A DNA stretch of 43,805 nucleotides, from assembly GCA_019235885.1 (NCBI GenBank), contig JAFAKB010000069.1:1-43805 (forward strand), given 5' to 3'. Under the pieces are notes generated by a model. That model ran no database searches. It saw only the letters and a program-made list of their open reading frames with translations, and was not told the DNA's origin. The translations under genes and the position numbers were made by a program. Source of the stretch: Candidatus Eremiobacterota bacterium. GTDB taxonomy: Bacteria; Vulcanimicrobiota; Vulcanimicrobiia; Vulcanimicrobiales; Vulcanimicrobiaceae. This document shows, piece after piece, positions 1,238 through 12,633 of the stretch (position 1 is its first letter; each line of letters starts with the position of its first letter).

Positions 1238-1762
1238 TCAGCCGTTTCCGGCCTCGCTTCCGCCGCCGCCGCTGGCGCTCGCTTTGCGCCGGCCGCGGCG
1301 CGGCTTGGCGACCTTCGCCGTCACCGACTCGACGACGGCCGCGCCGCTCTCGAGCAGCTGTCCGGCTTGTTCGAGGACCGTCCCGGCTTTGCGCGCCCCG
1401 CGCGTCGCCGTCTTCACGGTCTGCGCGGCAGTTTTCGCGATCCCGCCCGCGGCTTTGCGCGCTCGGCCGGCGGCCTTCGTCGTCGCGCCGGCGGCCTTTT
1501 CCACGCCCTCGGTCGCGTACGAGACGGGGCTCTTCTTCCGCGAGGTGCTCTTGCGCGCGGTACTCTTCTTCGCGCCGCCCCGCTTCGCGCCGCCCTTCTT
1601 TGCACGGCCCTTCTTCTCGCCGCCCCGCTTTGCGCCGCCCTTCTTCGCGCCGCCCTTCTTCGATGAGCCCTTTTTCGCGCCGCCTCGCGTTGCGCCGCCC
1701 TTTTTCGCCGCACCCTTGCGCGACCCCGCGGCCTTCTTGCGGCCGCCTTTTGCTGCTGCCAT
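1238..1762 (-). CDS. histone H1-like Lys/Gly/Ala-rich basic protein
   Basis: A 174-residue, extremely basic protein. The N-terminal half is a run of KKGGAKRGG-type repeats (about residues 5-80). The C-terminal half is Ala/Lys-rich and probably helical (KAAGRARKAAGGIAKTAAQ), ending in a basic RRGRRKASASGGGG tail. The composition matches bacterial H1-like (HctB/AlgP-type) proteins that bind and compact DNA; that role is inferred from composition only. I start it at the ATG at 1762 because GGAAGGG lies about 10 bases upstream. A longer open frame reaches 1828 but its first ATGs lack a site. It follows the terminator of the lipoprotein operon, so it should have its own promoter, and it converges on the acyl-CoA ligase with only 12 bases between them. 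Confidence 0.78.
   Translation of the reverse strand: MAAAKGGRKKAAGSRKGAAKKGGATRGGAKKGSSKKGGAKKGGAKRGGEKKGRAKKGGAKRGGAKKSTARKSTSRKKSPVSYATEGVEKAAGATTKAAGRARKAAGGIAKTAAQTVKTATRGARKAGTVLEQAGQLLESGAAVVESVTAKVAKPRRGRRKASASGGGGSEAGNG
1564..1712 (-). repeat. in-frame imperfect tandem repeat coding KKGGA/KRGGA
   Basis: Degenerate units of about 12-18 bases (on the plus strand variants of cgcgccgcccttctt) repeat roughly ten times inside the H1-like gene and encode KKGGA, KRGGA and KKGSS. Units are multiples of three, so copy-number change would alter protein length without breaking the frame. Confidence 0.65.
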
Positions 1763-1830
1763 AACGACGAATCCCTTCCGCTCGAAGCGATGGAACGTTG
1801 GTCGTACACTTCCCATCGTGCGGCGCAAGC

Positions 1831-1867
1831 AAACGAAAAGCCCGCCGCAACCTGGGTCGCGGCGGGC
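1831..1867 (-). terminator. intrinsic terminator of the lipoprotein operon
   Basis: GCCCGCCGC (1840-1848) pairs perfectly with GCGGCGGGC (1859-1867) around a 10-base loop. Read on the minus strand the stem is followed by TTTTCGTTTG, a good U-tract, so it should terminate the operon that ends at 1922. In the plus direction the tail is only CTTCCT. Confidence 0.8.
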
Positions 1868-1880
1868 CTTCCTATGGCGC

Positions 1881-1916
1881 CACGCGTTCGACGCGTGAGC
1901 CTCGGCGTTACGCCGA
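1881..1916. other. two small hairpins in the 3' untranslated region
   Basis: CACGCGT/ACGCGTG with a 3-base loop (1881-1897) is followed by TCGGCG/CGCCGA with a TTA loop (1902-1916). They sit between the lipoprotein stop codon and the terminator and may stabilise the 3' end of that mRNA. No protein-binding role is evident. Confidence 0.5.
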
Positions 1917-1921
1917 AGCCT

Positions 1922-2476
1922 TTAGTGCGGCTTTCTCCGCACCCCGCTGATCGTTCCGGACGTGGTGGTCACGGTGACGTTCACGCCGACCGAGCCGCCG
2001 TGGTTGTCGCTTACGACGATGGTGCACGACCCCGCGGCGACCGCGGTGACCGTGAACGTCGCGCTGGGTCCGGTCCCGGATGCGGGAGAGAACGTCGCGA
2101 TCCCGCCGCAGTTGCCGCTGCTGGCGTTGAGCGGACCGGTGTAGTTGTTCTCGGTGACCGTGAACTGCGCCGACGAGCCCGCGACCGTCAGCGAGATCGA
2201 GACCGCGCTCCCGCCGATGGGGGCCGGAACCGGCGTCGGCGTCGGAGTCGGCGTCGGCGTCGGCGTCGGTGTCGGCGTGGGAGTCGGTGTCGGGGTGGGC
2301 GTCGGCGTCGGGGCGGCCGGAGTCGGCGTCGGCGTCGGCACTGCCGTGCCGGTGTTGAACGGCGGCGGGTTCGTGCTGCTCCCGCCGCAGCCGACGACGA
2401 GCGCGGCCGCTGCGACCATCAGCGCCGTCGCGAGCACGCTGCGATCGCGCACGTGTCTATCTCTGTTCGCGCGCAT
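1922..2476 (-). CDS. lipoprotein with Pro-Thr repeat stalk and Ig-like domain
   Basis: A 184-residue exported lipoprotein. The N-terminus is basic, then a hydrophobic stretch ends in the lipobox LVVGC, so the mature protein should be anchored by its cysteine. An extended PTPTPT tract (about residues 46-82) forms a stalk. The remaining ~100 residues are rich in Thr/Ser/Val/Gly with two cysteines (GNCGG and GSCTI), like a small bacterial Ig-like or BIG fold (inference). The start is one base after the stop of the upstream propeller gene, so the two are an operon and probably translationally coupled. The function is unknown; a surface or cell-wall structural role is plausible. Confidence 0.75.
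   Translation of the reverse strand: MRANRDRHVRDRSVLATALMVAAAALVVGCGGSSTNPPPFNTGTAVPTPTPTPAAPTPTPTPTPTPTPTPTPTPTPTPTPTPVPAPIGGSAVSISLTVAGSSAQFTVTENNYTGPLNASSGNCGGIATFSPASGTGPSATFTVTAVAAGSCTIVVSDNHGGSVGVNVTVTTTSGTISGVRRKPH
2230..2339 (-). repeat. hexanucleotide tandem repeat coding Pro-Thr
   Basis: Units of gtcggc/gtcggt/gtcggg (plus strand) repeat about 18 times with one interruption and encode the PT stalk of the lipoprotein. The 6-base unit keeps the frame whatever the copy number. Confidence 0.8.
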
Positions 2477-2477
2477 C

Positions 2478-4214
2478 TCAGTACACCAGCTTTCCGATGC
2501 GGCCCGGCGTCGCCGGGGCCGAGCCCGGCTCGCAGAACCAGATGGAGCCGTCCGGAGCGGTGGCGATCCCCTGGAGCGCGAGGCCGCTCACCGGTGACGG
2601 GAAGTCGATCACCGTCCCGGTGGTGGTGATGCGGCCGATCTTGTCGACGATTGAAAGCGGCTGACCCTGCTCGGTGAACCACAGCGCCCCGTCCTGCCCG
2701 ACCGTGATCGACCAGGGCGCGCCTTGCTGCGTCGGCACCTGGAACTCGCCGGTGACCGAGAACGAGTTCGGAGAGAGCCGGCCGATGTTGCCGCGGCCGT
2801 TCTCGGTGAACCAGAGGTTGCCGTCGGGCCCGCGGACGATGTCAAACGGGGCGCTGGTGGCGGTCAGCGAGATCTCGCTCTGCGATGTGAACAGGTCGTG
2901 GACGCGGCCGATCTTGTCCACGTTCTGCTCGGTGTAGTACAGGTTGCCGTCCGGCGCCGTCGCGATGCCGAACGGCCCGGCGCTCGCGGTCGGGACGCTC
3001 GTCTCACCGGCTTGCGAGCCGTTGTAGCTGACGAACCCGACGCGGGAGCTGCCGTGGGCGACGTACCAGATGTTGCCGTCGCCGCGGTCGACGAGCCCAA
3101 ACGGCTGATCTGCCGGCGGCGGCGCGAAGAGCGTACTGAACTCGGTAATCGTCCCGGTCGTCGTGATTTTCGCAATTTTATTTGCGGTTGCACCCGACTC
3201 CGTGAACCACAGGTTGCCGTCGCTCGCGCCGATGATGTGCGGGCCTTGACCCTGCGTATCGAAAGCGTTCGGGGTCGGCACCGGGAACTCGGTGACCACG
3301 CCGGCCGGCGTGATCCGCGCGACCGCGTTGCCGGGCTGCTCGGTGAACCACATGTTCCCGTCGCTGCCGGCCGCGATGTAGCGCGGCTTGTTCGCCGCCG
3401 TCGGGATCGAGAACTGGTAGATCGTCGGTTTCGGCGTGAACGCCGCCGAGACGGCGGCGATGCCCGTGCCGCTCGCGACGACCGTTGCCGTCGGGCCGGC
3501 GGGCAGACCGCTGTTCAGCGTCCCGCCGTTGTAGGTCAACGTCGCGGTGGTCGCCGAGTTGGGCAGGTTGTTCGTGGACAGCGACAGCGTTCCGCTGTTC
3601 GTCGAGTCGCTGACCGCGAGATGGATCGGAACGCTGTAGTCGCCCGGTCCGACGATCGTGTTGCCGTCGGCGTCGCGCGCCGCGACGTTGACGTTGACGG
3701 TCGCCGGCACGCCGGCGTTCGGCGCGGCGTTGCTGAGCGAGATCGTCACCGACGCGACGACGCCGTTCAGCACGGCGTTGACAGTATTCGCGGCGCCGCT
3801 GACGATCGGTTGCGTCACCGAGGCGCGGCTCAGGACGTTGCCCTGTCCGTTCTGGTCGTCGTAGGTCTGGAAGACGAACGTGTCGGTCCCGATCGGCGCG
3901 TCGATCGTGATCGTCGTGGCGGGAGCGTTCAAGTACTGCGGCGTGCCGCCGTTCACGGAGACGGAGACGCTGCGCGCGGTCGGGGGAACGTATCTGGGAC
4001 TCCGCACCGACGAGGTCACGGTACCGGTGTTCCAGTGCATCGTAAACGTCACGCTCGCCATCGTGCTGTGCGACGGAGCGACGTTGGCCGGAGGCGTTGC
4101 CGAGGAGCCGCTGCCGCCGGAGCAGCCGGCGGCGAGAACGGCGATCGCGCATGCGCCGAGCAGGCGCGTTCGGAAACGCGAAACGCGAAGATGACTCAAG
4201 GCCGCAAGGCCCAT
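2478..4214 (-). CDS. lipoprotein with streptogramin-lyase-like beta-propeller
   Basis: A 578-residue secreted lipoprotein. The signal peptide ends in the lipobox LAAGC. It is followed by a ~230-residue region with Ig-like character (GVPATVNVNVAARDADGNT) and a C-terminal propeller of at least six blades carrying the repeated signature DGNLWFTE...GRIT...I.EF seen in virginiamycin B lyase (Vgb)/NHL-type propellers. Such lipoproteins are often annotated as streptogramin lyases, but antibiotic cleavage cannot be inferred from the fold; ligand binding or cell-surface work is as likely. I chose the ATG at 4214 because AGGAG at 4223-4227 is 8 bases away; the ATG at 4220 is too close. The open frame continues to 4475 without a signal peptide there. 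It forms an operon with the Pro-Thr lipoprotein. Confidence 0.8.
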   Translation of the reverse strand: MGLAALSHLRVSRFRTRLLGACAIAVLAAGCSGGSGSSATPPANVAPSHSTMASVTFTMHWNTGTVTSSVRSPRYVPPTARSVSVSVNGGTPQYLNAPATTITIDAPIGTDTFVFQTYDDQNGQGNVLSRASVTQPIVSGAANTVNAVLNGVVASVTISLSNAAPNAGVPATVNVNVAARDADGNTIVGPGDYSVPIHLAVSDSTNSGTLSLSTNNLPNSATTATLTYNGGTLNSGLPAGPTATVVASGTGIAAVSAAFTPKPTIYQFSIPTAANKPRYIAAGSDGNMWFTEQPGNAVARITPAGVVTEFPVPTPNAFDTQGQGPHIIGASDGNLWFTESGATANKIAKITTTGTITEFSTLFAPPPADQPFGLVDRGDGNIWYVAHGSSRVGFVSYNGSQAGETSVPTASAGPFGIATAPDGNLYYTEQNVDKIGRVHDLFTSQSEISLTATSAPFDIVRGPDGNLWFTENGRGNIGRLSPNSFSVTGEFQVPTQQGAPWSITVGQDGALWFTEQGQPLSIVDKIGRITTTGTVIDFPSPVSGLALQGIATAPDGSIWFCEPGSAPATPGRIGKLVY

Positions 4215-4501
4215 ACGCATATCTCCTCTGTCGGAGGGCTCGGGAACCGTAAGGATCGTGCGCTGCACCCGGTTCGCGCGGCGAGCGGCCTCGTCTGTGG
4301 GGACGACCGTGTCGTCCGCTCGGACGTGAGAGGTTGGGAACGGACGCGCCGTTTCCTTGCTCGGTAGGGGCGCGAACGGGCACTTTGTAGATTGGCGAAC
4401 GGCCGCTTTACCTACCGACCCGACCAAAACCGCAGGAGTCGCCGGTTCCGGCGCGCGAGTATCCGCGGTTCTCACTTCTTCCGGGCCAGGGGACCGACTC
4501 G
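4215..4501. other. divergent intergenic region
   Basis: This stretch of 287 bases separates the minus-strand propeller gene from the plus-strand dehydrogenase operon, so it must carry promoters for both. I see no convincing -35/-10 pair or operator. Upstream of the plus gene, AGGGG at about 4489 is a ribosome-binding site for the ATG at 4502. Confidence 0.5.
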
Positions 4502-5545
4502 ATGGCGAAAACGACGGCCGCGCGGGGGCGCGAGCTCGACCGCGCCGGTCTGAGCGACGAGCAGCTCGTCGCGATGCTTCGCAACATGCTGCTGCAGCGC
4601 CAGCTCGACAACCGCGGCTTTCAATTGAACCGGCAGGGGAAGATCCCGTTCGCGCTCGGCTCCGAGGGCCACGAGGGGGTTCAGGCCGGCGCCGCGATGG
4701 CGTTCAAGCGCGGCGCCGACGTGCTGGTGCCGTACTACCGCGACCTCGGGCTCGCGCTCGGAGTGGGGATGACGCCGTTCGAGATCCTCTCCTCGCTCTT
4801 CGCGCGCGAGACCGACCGCTCGATGGGCCGCCAGTTTCCGAACCACTACACGAACCACGATCTCGGCGTGCTCTCCATCTCCTCGATCATCGCGGGCCAC
4901 TGCACGCACGCGGTCGGTGTCGCCGCTGCCTTCAAGTACCGCGGCGAGAGCGGGCGCGCGGTGCTGTGCTCGAACGGTGAAGGCGCGACCTCGCAGGGCG
5001 AGTGGCATGAGTCGGTCAACTTCGCCGCCGTCCACGCGCTGCCGATCGTGTTCCTGGTGCAGAACAACGAGTGGGCGATCTCGACGCCGCAAGAGATGCA
5101 GATGAAGGTCGCCAACGTCGCCGACAAGGCGCCGGGCTACGGTTTGCCGGGCGTCGTGTGCGACGGCTTCAGCCCGGTCGCGACGTTCCAGGCGATGCAC
5201 GACGCGCTCGAGCGCGCGCGCGGCGGCGGCGGGCCCACGATCGTCGAGGCGAAGTGCTACCGTTTCCTCTCGCACTCGACCGACGACGACGACCGGACCT
5301 ACCGCTCGCGCGAAGTCATCGAAGAGCGCCGCAAGATGGACCCCGTCCCGCGCTACGAGCAGCTGCTGATCGAGGCCGGCGTGATCGACGAACCGCGCGC
5401 GAAGCAGCTCAAAGCCGACGTGCTGCGCGAGACGAACGAGGCCACCGACTCGGCCGAAGCGCAGCGGTACCCGACCGCCGAGAGCCTCTACACCAACGTC
5501 GTCGCGGGGGACTACCGCCCGTGGCAGGAGTTCGAAGCACGATGA
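4502..5545 (+). CDS. bkdA1: 2-oxoacid dehydrogenase E1 alpha (branched-chain type)
   Basis: A 347-residue thiamine-diphosphate-dependent decarboxylase subunit of a 2-oxoacid dehydrogenase complex, cytoplasmic. The ThDP motif GEGATSQGEWHE...VQNNEWAIS (GDG-x~25-NN type) is clear. PYYRDLGLALGVGMTP and the GRQFPNHY/LSISSIIAGH segments resemble branched-chain 2-oxoacid E1 alpha more than pyruvate E1 alpha; the substrate is therefore inferred. Length is typical. It is the first gene of an operon with E1 beta and E2, and its TGA overlaps the E1 beta start as ATGA. It could equally serve pyruvate; the gene symbol is tentative. Confidence 0.88.
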   Translation: MAKTTAARGRELDRAGLSDEQLVAMLRNMLLQRQLDNRGFQLNRQGKIPFALGSEGHEGVQAGAAMAFKRGADVLVPYYRDLGLALGVGMTPFEILSSLFARETDRSMGRQFPNHYTNHDLGVLSISSIIAGHCTHAVGVAAAFKYRGESGRAVLCSNGEGATSQGEWHESVNFAAVHALPIVFLVQNNEWAISTPQEMQMKVANVADKAPGYGLPGVVCDGFSPVATFQAMHDALERARGGGGPTIVEAKCYRFLSHSTDDDDRTYRSREVIEERRKMDPVPRYEQLLIEAGVIDEPRAKQLKADVLRETNEATDSAEAQRYPTAESLYTNVVAGDYRPWQEFEAR

Positions 5546-6549
5546 CCGCGACGGCGCAGCAGACCGGCGTGACGATGACCAACGTGGAAGCGGTGCGCAC
5601 GACGCTGCACGACGCGCTGGCGCGCGACGAGCGCGTGCTGATCATGGGCGAGGACGTCGGCGCGCGCGGCAACGTCTTCCTCATCACCAAAGGCTTCCTC
5701 GAAGAGTTCGGGGCGGAGCGGGTCGTCGACACCCCGCTGGCCGAGGCGTCGATCGTCGGGGTCGCGATCGGGATGGCGATGGAAGGTCTGCGGCCGATCG
5801 CGGAGATCCAGTTCGCCGACTTCATCTATCCGGCGTTCAACCAGATCGTCGGCGAGGCGGCGAAGACGCGCTATCGCAGCAACGGCGACTACACCTGTCC
5901 GCTGGTGATCCGCACGCCGTACGGCGGCGGCGTGCGCGGCGCGCTCTCGCACTCGGTCTCGATCGAAGCGCTGTTCTACCACGTTCCGGGGCTCACGATC
6001 CTCGCGCCGTCGACGCCCGCCGACATCAAAGGCTTGCTCAACGCGGCGATCGAGTGCCCCGACCCGGTGCTCTTCCTCGAGCACAAGAAGACGTACCGCA
6101 GCGTGAAGGGCGAAGTCCCGAGCGGCTACTACACGATCCCGATCGGCAAAGCCGACGTGAAGAAAGCCGGCACGCAGCTCACCGTCGTCTCGTACGGCTA
6201 TAACCTGCACCAGGCGCTCGAGGCGGCGAACCGGCTCGAAGGCGAAGGCGTCTCGGTGGAAGTGATCGACCTGCGCTCGATTCGGCCGATGGACAAAGGT
6301 GCGATCCTGGCGTCCGTGCGCAAGACGCGCAAGCTGCTCATCATCCACGAAGACAACAAGTTCGGCGGGATCGGCGCGGAGATCAGCGCGATGGTCGCCG
6401 AAGAGGCGCTCTTCGAATTGGACGCGCCGATCCGCCGGCTGGCCGGGCCCGACGTTCCCGCGATGGGCTATGCGCAGCCTCTCGAAGAAGAGTTCATGAC
6501 CTCGACCGACGAGATGGTCGAGGCGATGCGCGAGCTGGCGAAATTCTAG
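5542..6549 (+). CDS. bkdA2: 2-oxoacid dehydrogenase E1 beta
   Basis: A 335-residue transketolase-like partner subunit that completes the E1 heterotetramer and passes the acyl group to lipoyl-E2. Conserved stretches include MGEDVG near the N-terminus, VDTPLAEASIVGVAIGMAM, EIQFADFIYPAFNQI and RTPYGGGVRGALSHS, and the C-terminal transketolase domain with VEVIDLRSIRPMD and the IHEDNKFGGIGAEI segment. I use the ATG at 5542, which overlaps the previous stop (ATGA). A second ATG 33 bases on (MTNVEAV) is also possible. The E2 gene follows after 2 bases. Confidence 0.9.
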   Translation: MTATAQQTGVTMTNVEAVRTTLHDALARDERVLIMGEDVGARGNVFLITKGFLEEFGAERVVDTPLAEASIVGVAIGMAMEGLRPIAEIQFADFIYPAFNQIVGEAAKTRYRSNGDYTCPLVIRTPYGGGVRGALSHSVSIEALFYHVPGLTILAPSTPADIKGLLNAAIECPDPVLFLEHKKTYRSVKGEVPSGYYTIPIGKADVKKAGTQLTVVSYGYNLHQALEAANRLEGEGVSVEVIDLRSIRPMDKGAILASVRKTRKLLIIHEDNKFGGIGAEISAMVAEEALFELDAPIRRLAGPDVPAMGYAQPLEEEFMTSTDEMVEAMRELAKF

Positions 6550-6551
6550 CA

Positions 6552-8015
6552 ATGCCCACGACGATTACGATGCCGCAGCTGGGCGAGACGGTCACCGAAG
6601 GGACCGTCGCGCAGTGGCTCAAGAAACCCGGCGACGCGGTCGAGAAGTACGAAGCGTTCGTCGAGGTCTCGACCGACAAGGTGAACGCCGAAGTTCCCTC
6701 GCCGGTCACCGGCGTGATTCGCGAGTTGATCGTCAAGGAAGGCGAGACGGTTCCGACCGGCGCGCCGATCGCGATCATCGACGACGTGGCAGCCGGCGCG
6801 GCGACGCCCGAACCGACCGGAAGCGGCTCACCGTCCGAGCAAGTCGCGGCCGCCGCCGGCGACCGCAACGCCGAGGCGAACCATCAGGCCAGCGACGAGC
6901 CCGTGCCGGGCGGCAACGTCGGCTTGAGCGGCCCCACGTACAGCGCGCCGGCGCCGTCGAACGCCGCCTCGGGGAACGGCGCGTCGAGCGGCGTCGCACC
7001 GGGCGGCGTGCGCGTCTCGCCGGCGGTCCGCCGGCTTGCGCGCGAGCACCGCATCGATCTCGCGCGCGTGCGCGGCACCGGCGCGAACGGCCGCATCACC
7101 GCGAACGACGTCCTCGAAGCGGCGAAAGCCGGCCCGAGCGCTGCCGTCGCCGCAATGATCACGACCGCCAAGGAAGAGCCGCATCCGATACCGGCTCCGC
7201 CGCCGCCGACACCGCCGCCGACGACGTCCGCCCCGCCGACGCCGACGACGACGCCCCCACCGCCGCCGCCAACGCCGACGCCGCAGGAGCGCGCGAAGCC
7301 GTCGTACGCCGGCGCGCGGCCGGGCGAGCTGATCCCGCTCACGCAGGCGCGCAAGATCATCGCGCAGCGCATGGTCGACTCGAAGCACACCGCGCCGCAC
7401 GCGTGGACGATGACCGAAGTCGACGTCACCAACGTGTGGAAGTGGCGCGTGCGCGAGAAGGATGCGTTCGAGAAAGCGTACGGCGTGAAGCTGACGCTGC
7501 TGCCGTTCTTCATCCGCGCCGCGGTCGAGTCGCTCGCTGCGTTCCCGCTGATGAACGCGTCGTTTACCGACGAAGGGATTCGCGTCCACCGCGACGTCAA
7601 CGTCGGGCTGGCGATCGCGGCGGGCGGCAACCTGATCGTGCCGGTGATCCGCCACGCCGACCAGCTTTCGGTCAAAGGGCTGGCGCTCGCCGCAGGCGAG
7701 CTGATCGACAAGGCGCGGCGCGGCAAGCTCGGCGCCGACGATCTGGCCGGCGGAACGTTCACCGTCAACAACACCGGCGCCAACGGCTCGATCCTGAGCG
7801 CGCCGATCCTGGTGCCGGGTCAGACGGGGATCGTCACCACCGAAGCGGTGGTGAAGCGCCCGGTCGTGCGCGACGACGACTCGATCGCGATCCGCTCGAT
7901 GATGAACGTCTGCCTGTCGCTCGACCACCGCGTCGTCGACGGCGCGGTCGCCAGCGGCTTCCTGAGCGATCTCAAGAAGCGGCTCGAGGCGATGGGACCC
8001 ACGGGATCGCTATGA
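6552..8015 (+). CDS. bkdB: 2-oxoacid dehydrogenase E2 acyltransferase
   Basis: A 487-residue core enzyme that carries the acyl group on lipoyl-lysine and transfers it to CoA. Domain order: one lipoyl domain (residues 1-78; lipoylated Lys43 in EVSTDKVNAEV), an Ala/Ser/Gly linker, a peripheral-subunit-binding domain (about 150-188; SPAVRRLAREHRIDLARVRG...GRITANDV), a proline-threonine-rich linker (about 205-245), and the catalytic domain with the active-site DHRVVDG (His459, Asp463). All expected parts are present. An E3 (lipoamide dehydrogenase) gene is not in this window. The stop overlaps the next start as ATGA, so the downstream secreted protease-like gene is in the same transcript. Confidence 0.92.
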   Translation: MPTTITMPQLGETVTEGTVAQWLKKPGDAVEKYEAFVEVSTDKVNAEVPSPVTGVIRELIVKEGETVPTGAPIAIIDDVAAGAATPEPTGSGSPSEQVAAAAGDRNAEANHQASDEPVPGGNVGLSGPTYSAPAPSNAASGNGASSGVAPGGVRVSPAVRRLAREHRIDLARVRGTGANGRITANDVLEAAKAGPSAAVAAMITTAKEEPHPIPAPPPPTPPPTTSAPPTPTTTPPPPPPTPTPQERAKPSYAGARPGELIPLTQARKIIAQRMVDSKHTAPHAWTMTEVDVTNVWKWRVREKDAFEKAYGVKLTLLPFFIRAAVESLAAFPLMNASFTDEGIRVHRDVNVGLAIAAGGNLIVPVIRHADQLSVKGLALAAGELIDKARRGKLGADDLAGGTFTVNNTGANGSILSAPILVPGQTGIVTTEAVVKRPVVRDDDSIAIRSMMNVCLSLDHRVVDGAVASGFLSDLKKRLEAMGPTGSL

Positions 8016-9580
8016 CGGGTTCGGCCTCCGGCCGAACCCGGCAGGCCCGGTGTGTAGGACTCGTTCTCACGGCGCTGCTGGCCGGCGCCGTTCCCGCGCT
8101 CGCGGCGGCCGACGAGGAGCCGGGCGGGCTCGTCTCCTCGAGCTTCTCGCTGGCGCGGGTGCGCGCGCTGTACGAGCGCGCGCACGCGCGGGAGCACACG
8201 CGCGCGGTGACGGTGCAAGAGGACTGGCGCCTGTTCCAAGACGGCACGGTCGGCTCGTACAAGGTGAACCGGCTCGGCCGGGACGTGCGCGAGACGACGC
8301 AGCTCGGCCCGCTCGCGTACGAGCGCGGCGTTCTGCGCGGCGTGCACTGGGAGCAGAACCGCAACGGCATCACCTTCACCTATCCGGGCGTGCACGAGCA
8401 GCACGACGCCTTGAGCGAGCACGCCTTTCGCGATCCGAACGACGAGCGCTACGTGCGCCTGATCGGCGACTCGCCGGCGCTGAACGCAGCCGTCGTCGAG
8501 GTGAACCCGCCGAACGGCCGGCACGAGTGGCTCTTCGTCGACAAGCGCAGCGGCAACCTGATTCGGCGCGAGTACGTCGAGCGGCGGCGCCGCTACACGA
8601 CGACGTACGACGACTACCGGCTGGTGGAGGGCGTCCCCGAGCCCTCGCGCGTGCGGACCGTCGACTCGCTCGGAAACGAGCGCGAGCAGATCCTGGTCTC
8701 GCGCCAGCTCGACACGACCCCGGACCTCAAGGACGTCGAGATCCCGCCCTCGCGGCGCGTCGTCGAGTTTCCCGAAAAGCAGACGGCGGTGCGGCTTCCG
8801 GTGCGGTTCGTCAACGGGCTGCCGGTCGTGCGCGTGATCGTCGGGCGCGGCGCGTACGACTTCTTGCTCGATTCCGGCGCCGCCGGGATCGTGGTCGACC
8901 CGTCGGTCGTGCAGCAGCAGAATTTGGAAACCTACGGCCGCCGCGTCGGCGCGACGCTGGGGAGCTTCCCCGAGACGACGGCGATCGTCCCGCAGATGAC
9001 GATCGGCGGACTGCGCATGCGCAACCTCGTCACGCGCGTGGTGACGATTCCGTTTCACCTCGACAGCCGCACGCACGTCGCCGGCCTGCTCGGCTTCGAC
9101 TTCTTCGCCGACGCGGTGGTGCACCTCAACATCGGCAAGAACCTCGCCGAAGCGATCGCCCCCGAACGTTTCCGCCAGCCGCCCGACGCGAGCACCGTCG
9201 GCGTGGCGCTCGACGACAAGACGCCGGCGGTCTACGCGCGCGCCGGGACCGCGAACGGCCGCGTCGTGCTCGACACCGGCGCGAACCGGACCGTCTTCGA
9301 GACCGCGTTCGCCGACCGGGGCGACTTCAGCCCGGAGCGCGTCGCGAGCAGCACGCTGCACGTGCGCGGGATGGGCGGCTTCGCAAGTGCCGAGCCGACC
9401 CGCGTGCCGGCGTTCGAGCTGGGCGGGATCTGGACGCGCGAAGCGATGGCCGACGTCTCGAACGCCGACCTCGGCACCGAGGACCTCGACGGCATCGTCG
9501 GCACCGACCTTCTGCGCACGTACGAGATGTGGTTCGACTACCGCACCACCGCCGTCTACATCCGCAAAGCGAAGCGCTGA
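8012..9580 (+). CDS. secreted protein with two retropepsin-like aspartic protease modules
   Basis: A 522-residue exported protein. A signal peptide is visible (hydrophobic VGLVLTALLAGAVPALAAA). Residues ~35-255 form a region resembling outer-membrane-lipoprotein-type beta sheet (repeated R/Y/W pairs), not assigned. Two retropepsin-like modules follow. Module one has FLLDSGAAG (Asp287) and its partner LLGFDFF. Module two has VVLDTGANR (Asp421) and its partner IVGTDLLRTYEMWFDY. Each has the D-S/T-G-A active-site triplet and the later hydrophobic-G-x-D strand, so one chain could make a pseudodimer. Gag-asp-like proteases of this kind are known in bacteria, usually with one or two copies; the periplasmic substrate is unknown. 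Its ATG overlaps the E2 stop. Confidence 0.8.
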   Translation: MTGSASGRTRQARCVGLVLTALLAGAVPALAAADEEPGGLVSSSFSLARVRALYERAHAREHTRAVTVQEDWRLFQDGTVGSYKVNRLGRDVRETTQLGPLAYERGVLRGVHWEQNRNGITFTYPGVHEQHDALSEHAFRDPNDERYVRLIGDSPALNAAVVEVNPPNGRHEWLFVDKRSGNLIRREYVERRRRYTTTYDDYRLVEGVPEPSRVRTVDSLGNEREQILVSRQLDTTPDLKDVEIPPSRRVVEFPEKQTAVRLPVRFVNGLPVVRVIVGRGAYDFLLDSGAAGIVVDPSVVQQQNLETYGRRVGATLGSFPETTAIVPQMTIGGLRMRNLVTRVVTIPFHLDSRTHVAGLLGFDFFADAVVHLNIGKNLAEAIAPERFRQPPDASTVGVALDDKTPAVYARAGTANGRVVLDTGANRTVFETAFADRGDFSPERVASSTLHVRGMGGFASAEPTRVPAFELGGIWTREAMADVSNADLGTEDLDGIVGTDLLRTYEMWFDYRTTAVYIRKAKR

Positions 9581-9602
9581 ACCGTGTCAGCGCGCGGTTG
9601 CG

Positions 9603-10172
9603 TCAGTGGCGCGGGCCGCGGCGGCGGTCTTCGCGCGCGTCGAGCAGGACCGAGGTGATGAACGCCGTCTTCCCTTCGGTGTAGGAGTCGCGGTCGTCGC
9701 GGTAGTGCTGCGCGAGCTCGCGTTTGAGCGCGCCGTACTCTGCGGCGAGGTTTGGATCGGCGCGCAATGCGTCGCGCAGGATCAAGTGCGCTTGCAGCGG
9801 CGCGGCGCCGGCGGCGCAGACGTAGAGATGGTGTCGCGGCAGATCGGACGGCGGCATGCGAAACGCTTCCCGGCCGACGATCCCGAGGTCGCCGAGGTGC
9901 GCGTAGCCGAGCGCGCCAAGTTGTCGCACGACATCGGGCAGCTCGTCGGCGTGGCGGATCACCACGTCGATGTCCACGATCGGTTTGGCATCGCAGCCGG
10001 GGACGGCGGTGCTGCCGACGTGCTCGATCCCGACCGCGAGATCGCCGAGCGCCGCGGCGAGCCTCTCGCGCAGCAGCTCGAACGCCGCCGGCCAGGCGGG
10101 ATCGTACGGCACGACGACGACCGGTTCGGCGCGCTGCTCCGGCGAGATCGGGTCGACGCGCAGGTCCTTCAT
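9603..10172 (-). CDS. GrpB family protein
   Basis: A 189-residue cytoplasmic protein of the GrpB/UPF0157 family, which has a nucleotidyltransferase-like fold. The signature is VVPYDPAWPAAFELLRERL at the start, then EHVGSTAVPG (GS motif), KPIVDIDVV with the paired aspartates, and RHHLYVC. The molecular function of the family is poorly defined. I start it at the ATG at 10172, which overlaps the stop of the DUF4438 gene as ATGA, so the two are translationally coupled. The C-terminal tail (REDRRRGPRH) is basic. Confidence 0.86.
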   Translation of the reverse strand: MKDLRVDPISPEQRAEPVVVVPYDPAWPAAFELLRERLAAALGDLAVGIEHVGSTAVPGCDAKPIVDIDVVIRHADELPDVVRQLGALGYAHLGDLGIVGREAFRMPPSDLPRHHLYVCAAGAAPLQAHLILRDALRADPNLAAEYGALKRELAQHYRDDRDSYTEGKTAFITSVLLDAREDRRRGPRH

Positions 10173-11029
10173 CGCAGTCCCAAGATGGTGGCGAGGTTCG
10201 CGCGCGCGTCGAGTGCCGGCTCGAGCGCGCCGCTCGCGGAGGTGAGCAACGTCGTCACGCCGGGGCCGTGGCCGGCCATGTGCGAGGCGCCGTGCGAGAC
10301 GACCGCGACCGTCACGGCGCCTTGGCGGTAGATGCGGCCGAACGAGTTGTCCGCGTCTTCGATCGCGACCAGATCGCCGAGCCGCAGCTCGTTCAAGCCG
10401 TACTCGCGCACGGTCGCTTCGTCGAAGCACTGAATGTCGTAGTCGCCGCGCACGACCGTTTGCCGCCCGAGCCCCGAGCCCATCACGCGCGCGGGGACGC
10501 GCCGCGCGACCGGGACGCGCAGCCGCGCGCCGGCGCGCTCGACGCCGAGCTTCTCGAACAGGTCGGGATCGCAGTTGAACGCCTTCACGTCGCCGGTGTC
10601 TTCGATCTCCAAGCCGACGCCGACCGCGCACACGCTGATCGAATCGCCGATCGCCATGCGCTCCATCACGTCCGGCGCAAAGTCGATCATCACGTGCTCG
10701 ATTCCGCCGTGCTTGCCGGTCACCACGCCGCGCTCGCCCTTCGCCTCGCCGCCGGCGACGGTCGCCACGTTGCCCACGCACGCCAGCGCGCAGAACGCCG
10801 TGTTGACCTTGTCGTCGGGGTGGCGCACGCTGACGGCCGGCTCGACGTGGTCGCCCTCGAACGCGAACGCCGAGTCGCCGACGCGCGCGTTCAGCGTGAT
10901 GCCGCCGACGCTGGGAAGAATCCGCGGGACGCCGTCGGCGCCGACGTCGTAGAGACCCGGTGCGAGGAGCGGCGGTGCGACCTGCGCGCTCAGGACTTGG
11001 ACGACGAGTCGGGAGCGGTTCGTCCTCAC
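10169..11029 (-). CDS. DUF4438 family protein
   Basis: A 286-residue protein matching the DUF4438 family, with the typical segments PSVGGITLNARVGD, EGDHVEPAVSVRHPDD, TGKHGGIEHVMIDF, MGSGLGRQTVVRGDYDIQ and SHGASHMAGHGPGV. Conserved histidines and aspartates suggest an enzyme, but no reaction is established to my knowledge. It starts with GTG only 17 bases from the divergent queD start, so the two promoters must overlap the coding ends. It forms a coupled pair with the GrpB gene. Confidence 0.82.
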   Translation of the reverse strand: MRTNRSRLVVQVLSAQVAPPLLAPGLYDVGADGVPRILPSVGGITLNARVGDSAFAFEGDHVEPAVSVRHPDDKVNTAFCALACVGNVATVAGGEAKGERGVVTGKHGGIEHVMIDFAPDVMERMAIGDSISVCAVGVGLEIEDTGDVKAFNCDPDLFEKLGVERAGARLRVPVARRVPARVMGSGLGRQTVVRGDYDIQCFDEATVREYGLNELRLGDLVAIEDADNSFGRIYRQGAVTVAVVSHGASHMAGHGPGVTTLLTSASGALEPALDARANLATILGLR

Positions 11030-11046
11030 GGCGAACCCCGTGGGCC

Positions 11047-11430
11047 GTGCAAATCCGCAAGTCCTTCACGTTCGAGGCAGCGCACGTGCTTCCGCACCAC
11101 CCCGGCAAGTGCTCGCGGCTGCACGGGCACTCGTACCGGCTCGACGTCGCACTTGAGGGACCGCTTCAGGACAGCGGTCCGGCGACCGGCATGGTCGAGG
11201 ACTTCGACGTGATCTCGCGGGTCGTCAAGAAGGCGGTCGTCAGCCGGCTCGACCACTGCTCGCTCAACGAGCTGATCGACAACCCCACGGCCGAGCGAAT
11301 CCTCGCCTGGGTGTGGGGGCGGCTCGCGGACGAGCTCCCCGGCCTTGCCGAGCTGACCTTGTGGGAGACTTCGACGGCCTGCGCCGTTCTCAGGAAGGGT
11401 GACCCTCTCAGCCAGGCGCGAATCGGGTAA
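11047..11430 (+). CDS. queD: 6-carboxytetrahydropterin synthase QueD
   Basis: A 127-residue enzyme of the 7-deazaguanine (preQ0/queuosine) pathway that converts dihydroneopterin triphosphate to 6-carboxytetrahydropterin. Zinc-binding histidines are visible in EAAHVL and HGHSY, the catalytic Cys in GKCSRLHGH, and the conserved LDHCSLNE and LWETSTACA segments. Length is normal. I start it at the GTG at 11047 (MQIRKSFTFEAAH), where family homology begins; a longer frame upstream to 10960 lies inside the divergent gene. QueE follows two genes on, but QueC and QueF are not in the window. Confidence 0.93.
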   Translation: MQIRKSFTFEAAHVLPHHPGKCSRLHGHSYRLDVALEGPLQDSGPATGMVEDFDVISRVVKKAVVSRLDHCSLNELIDNPTAERILAWVWGRLADELPGLAELTLWETSTACAVLRKGDPLSQARIG

Positions 11431-12057: not shown

Positions 12058-12633
12058 TTGCTTCAGCTGGCTGAGATCTTCTACAGCGTCCAAGGCGAGG
12101 GGACGTGGACCGGGACACCCGCGGTCTTCGTCCGCCTCGCCGGCTGCAATCTCAGCTGCTCGTTCTGCGACACCGACTACTCGCTGAAGTTCTTCGCGTC
12201 GGTCGAGGACGTCGTCGCGCGCGTGCGCGCCGAAGGCGGCGCGTGCCCGACGGTCATCCTCACCGGTGGCGAGCCGCTCGCGCAGCGTGAGTCGCGCGCG
12301 CTGATCGAGGCGCTGCGCGGCGACGGCCGGCGCGTTCATATCGAGTCGAACGGGACGCTGCCGACCGAGCTGGCCGACGACGTCTGGCTGACCGTCTCGC
12401 CGAAGGAGCGGCTCGCGCCGGCGATGGCGCGGCGGGCGAACGAGGCGAAGCTCATCGTCGACGGGCGCGTCCCCGAGGAGTGGATCGGCGCGTTCCCGGC
12501 GAGCACGCCGATGTTTCTGCAGCCGGAAGGCAACAAGCCCGCCAACGTCGCACTCGCGGTCGAAGCGGCGAAGCGCGATCCGCAGCGGCTGCGGCTCTCG
12601 CTGCAGACGCACAAGCTCATCGGCGTGAGGTAA
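12058..12633 (+). CDS. queE: 7-carboxy-7-deazaguanine synthase QueE
   Basis: A 191-residue radical-SAM enzyme that turns 6-carboxytetrahydropterin, the QueD product, into 7-carboxy-7-deazaguanine. The N-terminal substrate motif YSVQGEG and the radical-SAM cluster CNLSCSFC (CxxxCxxC) are intact; LTGGEPL and HIESNGT match the SAM-binding strands. The start is a TTG at 12058 (MLQLAEIFYSVQGEG), 25 bases after the previous gene. No better start is available in frame. Size fits the short QueE class. Confidence 0.92.
   Translation: MLQLAEIFYSVQGEGTWTGTPAVFVRLAGCNLSCSFCDTDYSLKFFASVEDVVARVRAEGGACPTVILTGGEPLAQRESRALIEALRGDGRRVHIESNGTLPTELADDVWLTVSPKERLAPAMARRANEAKLIVDGRVPEEWIGAFPASTPMFLQPEGNKPANVALAVEAAKRDPQRLRLSLQTHKLIGVR

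Follow-up and report, generated by a model that had tools for sequence, protein, structure and literature searches.

A tandem retropepsin-like gene, probably for an exported aspartic peptidase, behind a dehydrogenase E2 gene of an Eremiobacterota bacterium

The window analysed here is a whole 43,805-nucleotide stretch of DNA from a Candidatus Eremiobacterota bacterium (contig JAFAKB010000069.1, which is contig C69 of the 4.5-Mb draft genome GCA_019235885.1). Behind the E2 gene of a 2-oxoacid dehydrogenase it carries, at 8012-9580 on the forward strand, an open reading frame (ORF) of 522 amino acids with the motif D-S-G-A at residue 287 and D-T-G-A at residue 421. The product is probably an exported tandem-retropepsin protein, and its sequence predicts a pepstatin-type aspartic protease activity. 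Our preferred reading, to which we give a probability of roughly 0.7, is that the gene behind E2 encodes an exported, single-chain, two-lobed aspartic peptidase of the retropepsin-like clan; the export, dyad geometry, catalysis, co-expression, substrate and ancestral insertion that belong to this reading are what we infer. The parts of the protein are listed below.

8012..8107 (+), residues 1-32: signal-peptide-like segment, from sequence reading; its start ATG overlaps the E2 stop
8111..8776 (+), residues about 34-255: conserved N-terminal domain without a confident family
8795..9166 (+), residues 262-385: retropepsin-like module 1, with D287-S-G and G-L-L-G 358-361
8870..8872 (+): codon of Asp287, putative catalytic, kept in 61 of 62 distinct homologues
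9185..9571 (+), residues 392-520: retropepsin-like module 2, with D421-T-G, a Gly-rich flap-like G-M-G-G 453-456 and D-G-I-V-G 493-497
9272..9274 (+): codon of Asp421, putative catalytic, kept in 60 of 62 distinct homologues

The protein belongs to the Pfam family PF13650 (Asp_protease_2; 58.6 bits against a cut-off of 24.3) and also passes the cut-off of PF13975 (gag-asp_proteas; 52.8 against 28.2 bits), and because each family matches over two stretches, both modules are more than chance motifs. The hydrophobic-hydrophobic-Gly motif of the psi-loop is present in each, as LLG at 359-361 in module 1 and IVG at 495-497 in module 2. The first-pass annotation of this DNA, made from the letters, had described two complete D-S/T-G-A modules in one chain, and that description holds. 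HIV protease uses the retropepsin module once; the window protein holds two copies. When the profiles of the two modules are aligned with each other (hhalign), they match over 121 columns (98.9%, E 2.8e-17), so that modules 1 and 2 are homologous to one another.

Conservation was read from homologues in fetched loci whose match spans at least 350 query residues, shorter or unfetched matches being left out; the alignment has 64 rows, two of which are second copies of the same gene, leaving 62 distinct proteins. D287 is kept in 63 of the 64 rows and D421 in 62, and this near-total conservation places the two residues under equally strong constraint. Among the glycines, G358 and G361 are found in all 64 rows, G423 in 63, G289 in 62, G497 in 60 (two rows are truncated there) and G494 in 58. 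A hand-picked alignment of 38 members, from which three copies that have lost a catalytic Asp were excluded, is invariant only at N118, D287, G289, G358, G361, F364, D421, G423, G456 and G494, most of which are the Asp-x-Gly of both modules and the glycines of their other motifs. A family in which most members had one Asp or the other replaced would, according to the first-pass annotation, have counted against it; this is not what the homologues display.

The three Asp-lost proteins (in loci L036, L058 and L035) form one clade (100/100) and each adjoins an intact copy; this clade beside intact copies is a kept pseudoprotease-protease pair. Their losses indicate that the fold can persist without the dyad, as would be expected if the family served in vivo as binding or chaperone proteins retaining the fold, and a PE_PGRS16 domain without activity is described in the available part of PMC6819658. 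A non-protease of this kind is nevertheless unlikely to be what the window encodes, as each of the two aspartates is present in almost every distinct homologue, in a protein that varies at most other positions. The pairs of Asp-lost and intact genes, from three genera, lie at L036:3051-4505 with 1453-3081, L058:6330-8012 with 7828-9594 and L035:3032-4393 with 1450-3162.

As a peptidase, the protein would work with its two tandem modules facing each other in one chain, D287 and D421 forming a single catalytic dyad that activates water in the manner of the pepsin lobes or the retropepsin subunits. Searched against the PDB, the family profile A2 matches 9iy9_A, an 'Exported protein' of 420 amino acids, at E 9.1e-16 (profile 270-531 on chain 146-407), and the alignment is collinear over both modules, with FDTGA under the first Asp motif and FDTGN under the second. 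The self-contained active site proposed in the first-pass annotation gains support from this match and from the conservation of both aspartates, its dyad geometry staying conjectural. It is also conceivable that the active form is a dimer of two chains, module 1 pairing with module 1 and module 2 with module 2, which would give two sites and make the tandem a mere fusion; full motifs are kept in both modules, and homodimers are formed by bacterial retropepsins with a single module, RloA for example, according to the available part of PMC12239564. Against such pairing, 9iy9_A is matched along both modules within a single chain, and the halves differ in the same way across the family, module 1 mostly having D-S-G (S in 48 of 64 rows) and module 2 D-T-G (T in 60 of 64). 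The Gly-rich G-x-G-G of module 2, reminiscent of the HIV protease flap, has Gly at 453, 455 and 456 in 51, 58 and 59 of the 64 rows, whereas the stretch of module 1 aligned to it keeps one (317, in 50 of 64), so the two halves are unequal here too. We therefore hold pairing between chains to be quite improbable and prefer one site shared by the two modules of a single chain.

Several results weigh against a two-lobed, exported peptidase. The other PDB matches of the A2 profile are short and far weaker than 9iy9_A, with the copies of a tethered-dimer HIV protease at 0.53 each (2e-5 summed), penicillopepsin at 7.7e-5 over module 1 only and ApRick at 1.4e-4 over part of module 1. The single sequence P0001 found no relative among solved structures, and a six-row profile, A1, gave weak matches only (equine infectious anaemia virus protease, 0.034). 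AlphaFold models built with six sequences only have a mean predicted local distance difference test (pLDDT) score of 35.6 for the full length and 30.7 for the two modules; as these models are unusable, the pairing of D287 with D421 is one that we infer. The export of the protease is read by eye from its N-terminus, and the N-terminal domain is without a family, with no Pfam match for this domain of the window protein.

That N-terminus has a basic n-region, a hydrophobic stretch and A-x-A, which suggests a signal peptide at residues 1-32, and the six aligned orthologues share the boundary A-A-x-D-[ED]-[ED]-P. In the N-terminal domain of the 38 members, beside the invariant N118, residues G99, G106, W113 and R185 are conserved at 90% or more. 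Pfam searches with 33 isolated N-terminal domains returned single weak matches only, in members other than the window protein, and no convincing PDB relative of the domain was found (best E 0.83). A LolA-like domain was considered, PF17131 having matched one of the 38 members (0.0014), and is not claimed because PF17131 is not among the families matched by the 33 isolated domains. The domain, whose fold is without a known relative, would probably hold either the enzyme or its substrate in place within the envelope.

Bacteria are already known to have surface-located aspartic proteases made of a single chain. PecA, in the available part of PMC6819658, is such a chain, with DTG and DSG at 293 and 470, and needs Asp293 for its self-processing. 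The C-terminal domain of PecA and PE_PGRS16 (mycobacteria, PDB 4EHC) is there described as an aspartic protease fold with two motifs in one chain, like that predicted for the window protein. The window protein differs in that it reaches 19.3 bits against the 150 required by NF038019, and so falls outside that model; 4ehc matches the family profile at 0.073, the N-terminal parts are other ones and PecA acts on type VII substrates. Aligned with 9iy9_A, it has the two modules in the same order within one chain and its Asp motifs opposite those of 9iy9_A, which places it in the single-chain, two-module class; unlike it, 9iy9_A, known here from sequence alignment, has no match over the first part of the family profile. 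A search of open-licence text for the code 9iy9 returned no paper.

RloA, RimB and APRc have in common with the window protein a retropepsin-like module with DTG, and RimB and APRc are, we take it, single-module bacterial retropepsins. RloA, in the available text of PMC12239564, is secreted and, unlike the window protein, has one module per chain and forms a homodimer. Bacterial pepsins are bilobed and predicted to be intracellular, and pepsin lobes are said in the accessible portion of PMC2761423 to have no sequence similarity beyond the motifs. The window protein resembles pepsin family A1 in having two predicted lobes with one Asp each, and penicillopepsin, as noted, matches module 1; its modules are, in contrast to those lobes, still detectably homologous. 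A family A1 model was found neither for the window protein (Pfam, E up to 1) nor among the 9 families matched by the 38 members. The clan AA proteases TIGR02281 and TIGR03698 share clan and motif, and were set aside as the window protein scores below their curated cut-offs (25.4 against 57.95 and 14.7 against 57.35 bits, respectively). By Pfam, then, the window protein is a retropepsin-like tandem, and it lies outside PecA, TIGR02281 and A1.

Tandem retropepsins form a large family in Eremiobacterota, of which the window protein is a member. In its own genome 14 places match the family profile, the window protein included and some of them partial (about a dozen paralogues), and 44 of the 60 genomes searched, again with its own included, have a family match at 1e-20. 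The five named loci matched by the window protein are Candidatus Eremiobacterota or WPS-2 metagenome assemblies; scans of viral contigs and a tblastn of plasmids found no further usable relatives. Orthologues of the window protein form a group of 12 rows (100/100) that sits on a long stem; the split G009 copy and G148 belong to it as well. Pepsin is thought to derive from the duplication and fusion of a half-size ancestor, and this family makes a workable living model of that step, since its modules are still homologous, there are about a dozen copies in a genome and Asp-lost copies stand beside intact ones. One genome of class f3, G047, has tandem retropepsin genes in two rows of three (L055:5139-10258 and G047:C39:63204-68851). 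At G034:C4:332004-334441 (L067, L169), a tandem retropepsin with the N-terminal domain lies head to tail with one of a second, TPR-type architecture, their matches about 24 bp apart, so that the two architectures can adjoin on one strand.

The genes around the protease are as follows.

4502..5545 (+): 2-oxoacid dehydrogenase E1 alpha (PF00676, E 1.7e-73)
5575..6549 (+), start approximate: 2-oxoacid dehydrogenase E1 beta (NF006667, above cut-off)
6552..8015 (+): dihydrolipoyl acyltransferase E2 (PF00198, PF00364, PF02817)
9603..10163 (-): convergent ORF between the protease and the QueD-like gene, presumably GrpB-like; in 7 other genomes of the genus, not in G003 or G006
10169..11029 (-): convergent DUF4438 gene (PF14505/PF20999)
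10960..11430 (+): downstream block gene, presumably QueD-like, from its place after E2 in relatives
12058..12633 (+): downstream block gene, presumably QueE-like, from its place after QueD in relatives

E1 beta passes the cut-off of the pyruvate dehydrogenase E1 beta subfamily (330.1 against 321) and neither E1 alpha nor E2 reaches an NCBIfam cut-off; because E1 beta alone does so, the name 'pyruvate-type' is likely, not proven. Divergent from E1 alpha, at 2478-4475 (-), lies a gene for a large exported-looking protein, which occurs in 4 other genomes of the genus and is doubled in L046.

The ATGA coupling to E2 that the first-pass annotation reported is confirmed, the ATG at 8012 overlapping the stop TGA at 8013-8015. 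An orthologue stands directly after E2, on the same strand, in all 14 genomes found to have one, namely all 11 of the genus and G028, G148 and G109; in G009 a contig end splits the gene and leaves the N-terminal part only. Of the 13 junctions read, 7 have a start that overlaps the E2 stop (ATGA in the window, GTGA in L046, TAATG in L042 and TAGTG in L009, L039, L041 and L043); the start comes later in L040, L050, L051 and L052 and is ambiguous in L049 and L102. The block E1 alpha-E1 beta-E2...QueD-QueE is common in the taxonomic family, and E1 alpha-E1 beta-E2 with a downstream QueD is also common in the sister family f2. Of 20 loci (L082-L101), 19 have QueD after E2; a second survey showed it in 36 of 55, the remaining stretches (mostly 2.9 kb or less) ending before any QueD. 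One member of the protease family may have come to lie behind E2 in the ancestor of the genus and two related genera, at a point where the gene block otherwise leads to QueD-QueE; there the protease gene could be expressed together with those of the dehydrogenase, translation reinitiating at the start that overlaps the E2 stop.

The first-pass annotation had suggested that the link to E2 may be operon hitch-hiking. This stands in so far as the protease lies in an older, partly conserved block and is missing from most other genera, and it may be incomplete, since tandem retropepsins behind E2 exceed what gene density leads one to expect. The slot behind E2 was screened with module profiles in 88 genomes of 36 genera (two of these genomes, one genus, from family f2), as far as QueD or 2.6 kb, or less where the fetched stretch ended sooner. 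The screen flags 17 genomes in 7 genera, with the window's type in g1, g19 and g48 and the other type in g5, g53, g26 and g18 (in one of 7 genomes); G009, with its contig end, and G128 (g51), beyond the 2.6-kb limit, were added from outside this uniform screen. The other type is the TPR-type, which as read in G014 has a signal-like start, TPR and two modules, and it lies behind E2 on the same strand in G014, G145, G035 and G096, that is, in 4 of the 33 other genera within 2.6 kb, or 5 on the wider look that takes in G128.

These four slot proteins are 40-46% identical, and the two aspartates are retained by 27 and 28, respectively, of the 28 TPR-type proteins. The G014 gene starts immediately behind the E2 stop; in G035 a gap of about 0.3 kb, containing a small ORF, separates the two; the 2.5 kb fetched behind E2 of G145 showed no QueD; and the G128 gene is found 2.2 to 3.3 kb downstream of E2, immediately ahead of a QueD fragment at the end of the contig. 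The slot members are not united in the TPR-type tree, whose backbone is weak: G014 pairs with G145 (98/87), G096 clusters with proteins from outside the slot (100/99), and G128 falls elsewhere. This pattern would be compatible either with several arrivals or with an old copy in the slot and relocations. About 7 kb behind E2 in G138:C115 (L191:8854-9804) there is a diverged TPR-type frame with a stop codon inside its profile match, perhaps a decaying copy, which was not counted.

Retropepsin density, taken as 591 PF13650 matches in 219.4 Mb (85 genomes outside g1, g19 and g48, sizes rounded), predicts 0.144 retropepsins on either strand for the largest slot of each other genus, and 4 were seen (Poisson P(>=4) 1.6e-5 if independent). 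Slot and background are not measured alike here, as the density counts PF13650 matches and the slot was screened with our own module profiles. Counted as three, two or one events, P is 4.5e-4, 0.009 or 0.13. Including G128 gives P(>=5) 5e-7, a value that is too kind, G128 having come to light only because the search reached further at that locus than at others. As a local control, loci L082-L101 (4.5 to 11 kb each) hold no retropepsin besides the slot one in L095.

That the place behind E2 is a variable slot of a conserved block, the link being without function, fits what most genera have, in part among the matches listed: QueD directly after E2, or other ORFs there. We know of no functional tie of QueD and QueE to this block, the start overlaps in just 7 of 13 junctions, and P is only 0.13 if all TPR-type cases are one inherited event. 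The second architecture within 2.6 kb of E2 in 4 of 33 genera speaks for something more, at P 1.6e-5 if these cases are independent. On balance we put a link without function at slightly better than even. The place behind E2 may be more than hitch-hiking, with shared ancestry able to inflate the count; that exported tandem retropepsins with two different architectures have, in this taxonomic family, repeatedly settled or been kept behind a pyruvate-type E2 because of a dose usefully tied to central carbon flux is a doubtful proposal. If true, it would link acetyl-CoA supply with envelope proteolysis. A search of open-licence PMC text, in titles and the starts of abstracts, returned no such link, and the same kind of search, partly among the matches listed, no paper on the protease family or on its place behind E2. 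That tandem retropepsin genes recur behind one E2 gene is an oddity open to testing.

A further feature lies at the junction itself.

8016..8040 (+): palindrome with a perfect 11-bp stem and a 3-nt loop, directly after the E2 stop and lying in frame in the protease's opening codons

It is kept in 8 of 12 junctions. Across these eight sequences, which were chosen for having the palindrome, 95.5% of 88 cells are paired and 2 of 11 pairs have changed on both sides; among 500 shuffles the percentage paired was reached in 1, the covariation score in 5 and the number of both-side pair changes in 123. Local folding at the palindrome is not unusual relative to shuffles (z -0.43) in this GC-rich sequence. 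The palindrome may damp translation of the protease; it is not put forward as a terminator. A dispersed repeat was considered and dropped: TTCGGCCNNNGGCCGAA has 4 sites in the own genome against 1 in a reversed control, and a looser pattern has 36 against 8 there and 10-26 against 2-11 in ten other genomes, with G007 not above its control. In the L040 junction a different, 15-bp hairpin stands in the place of the palindrome.

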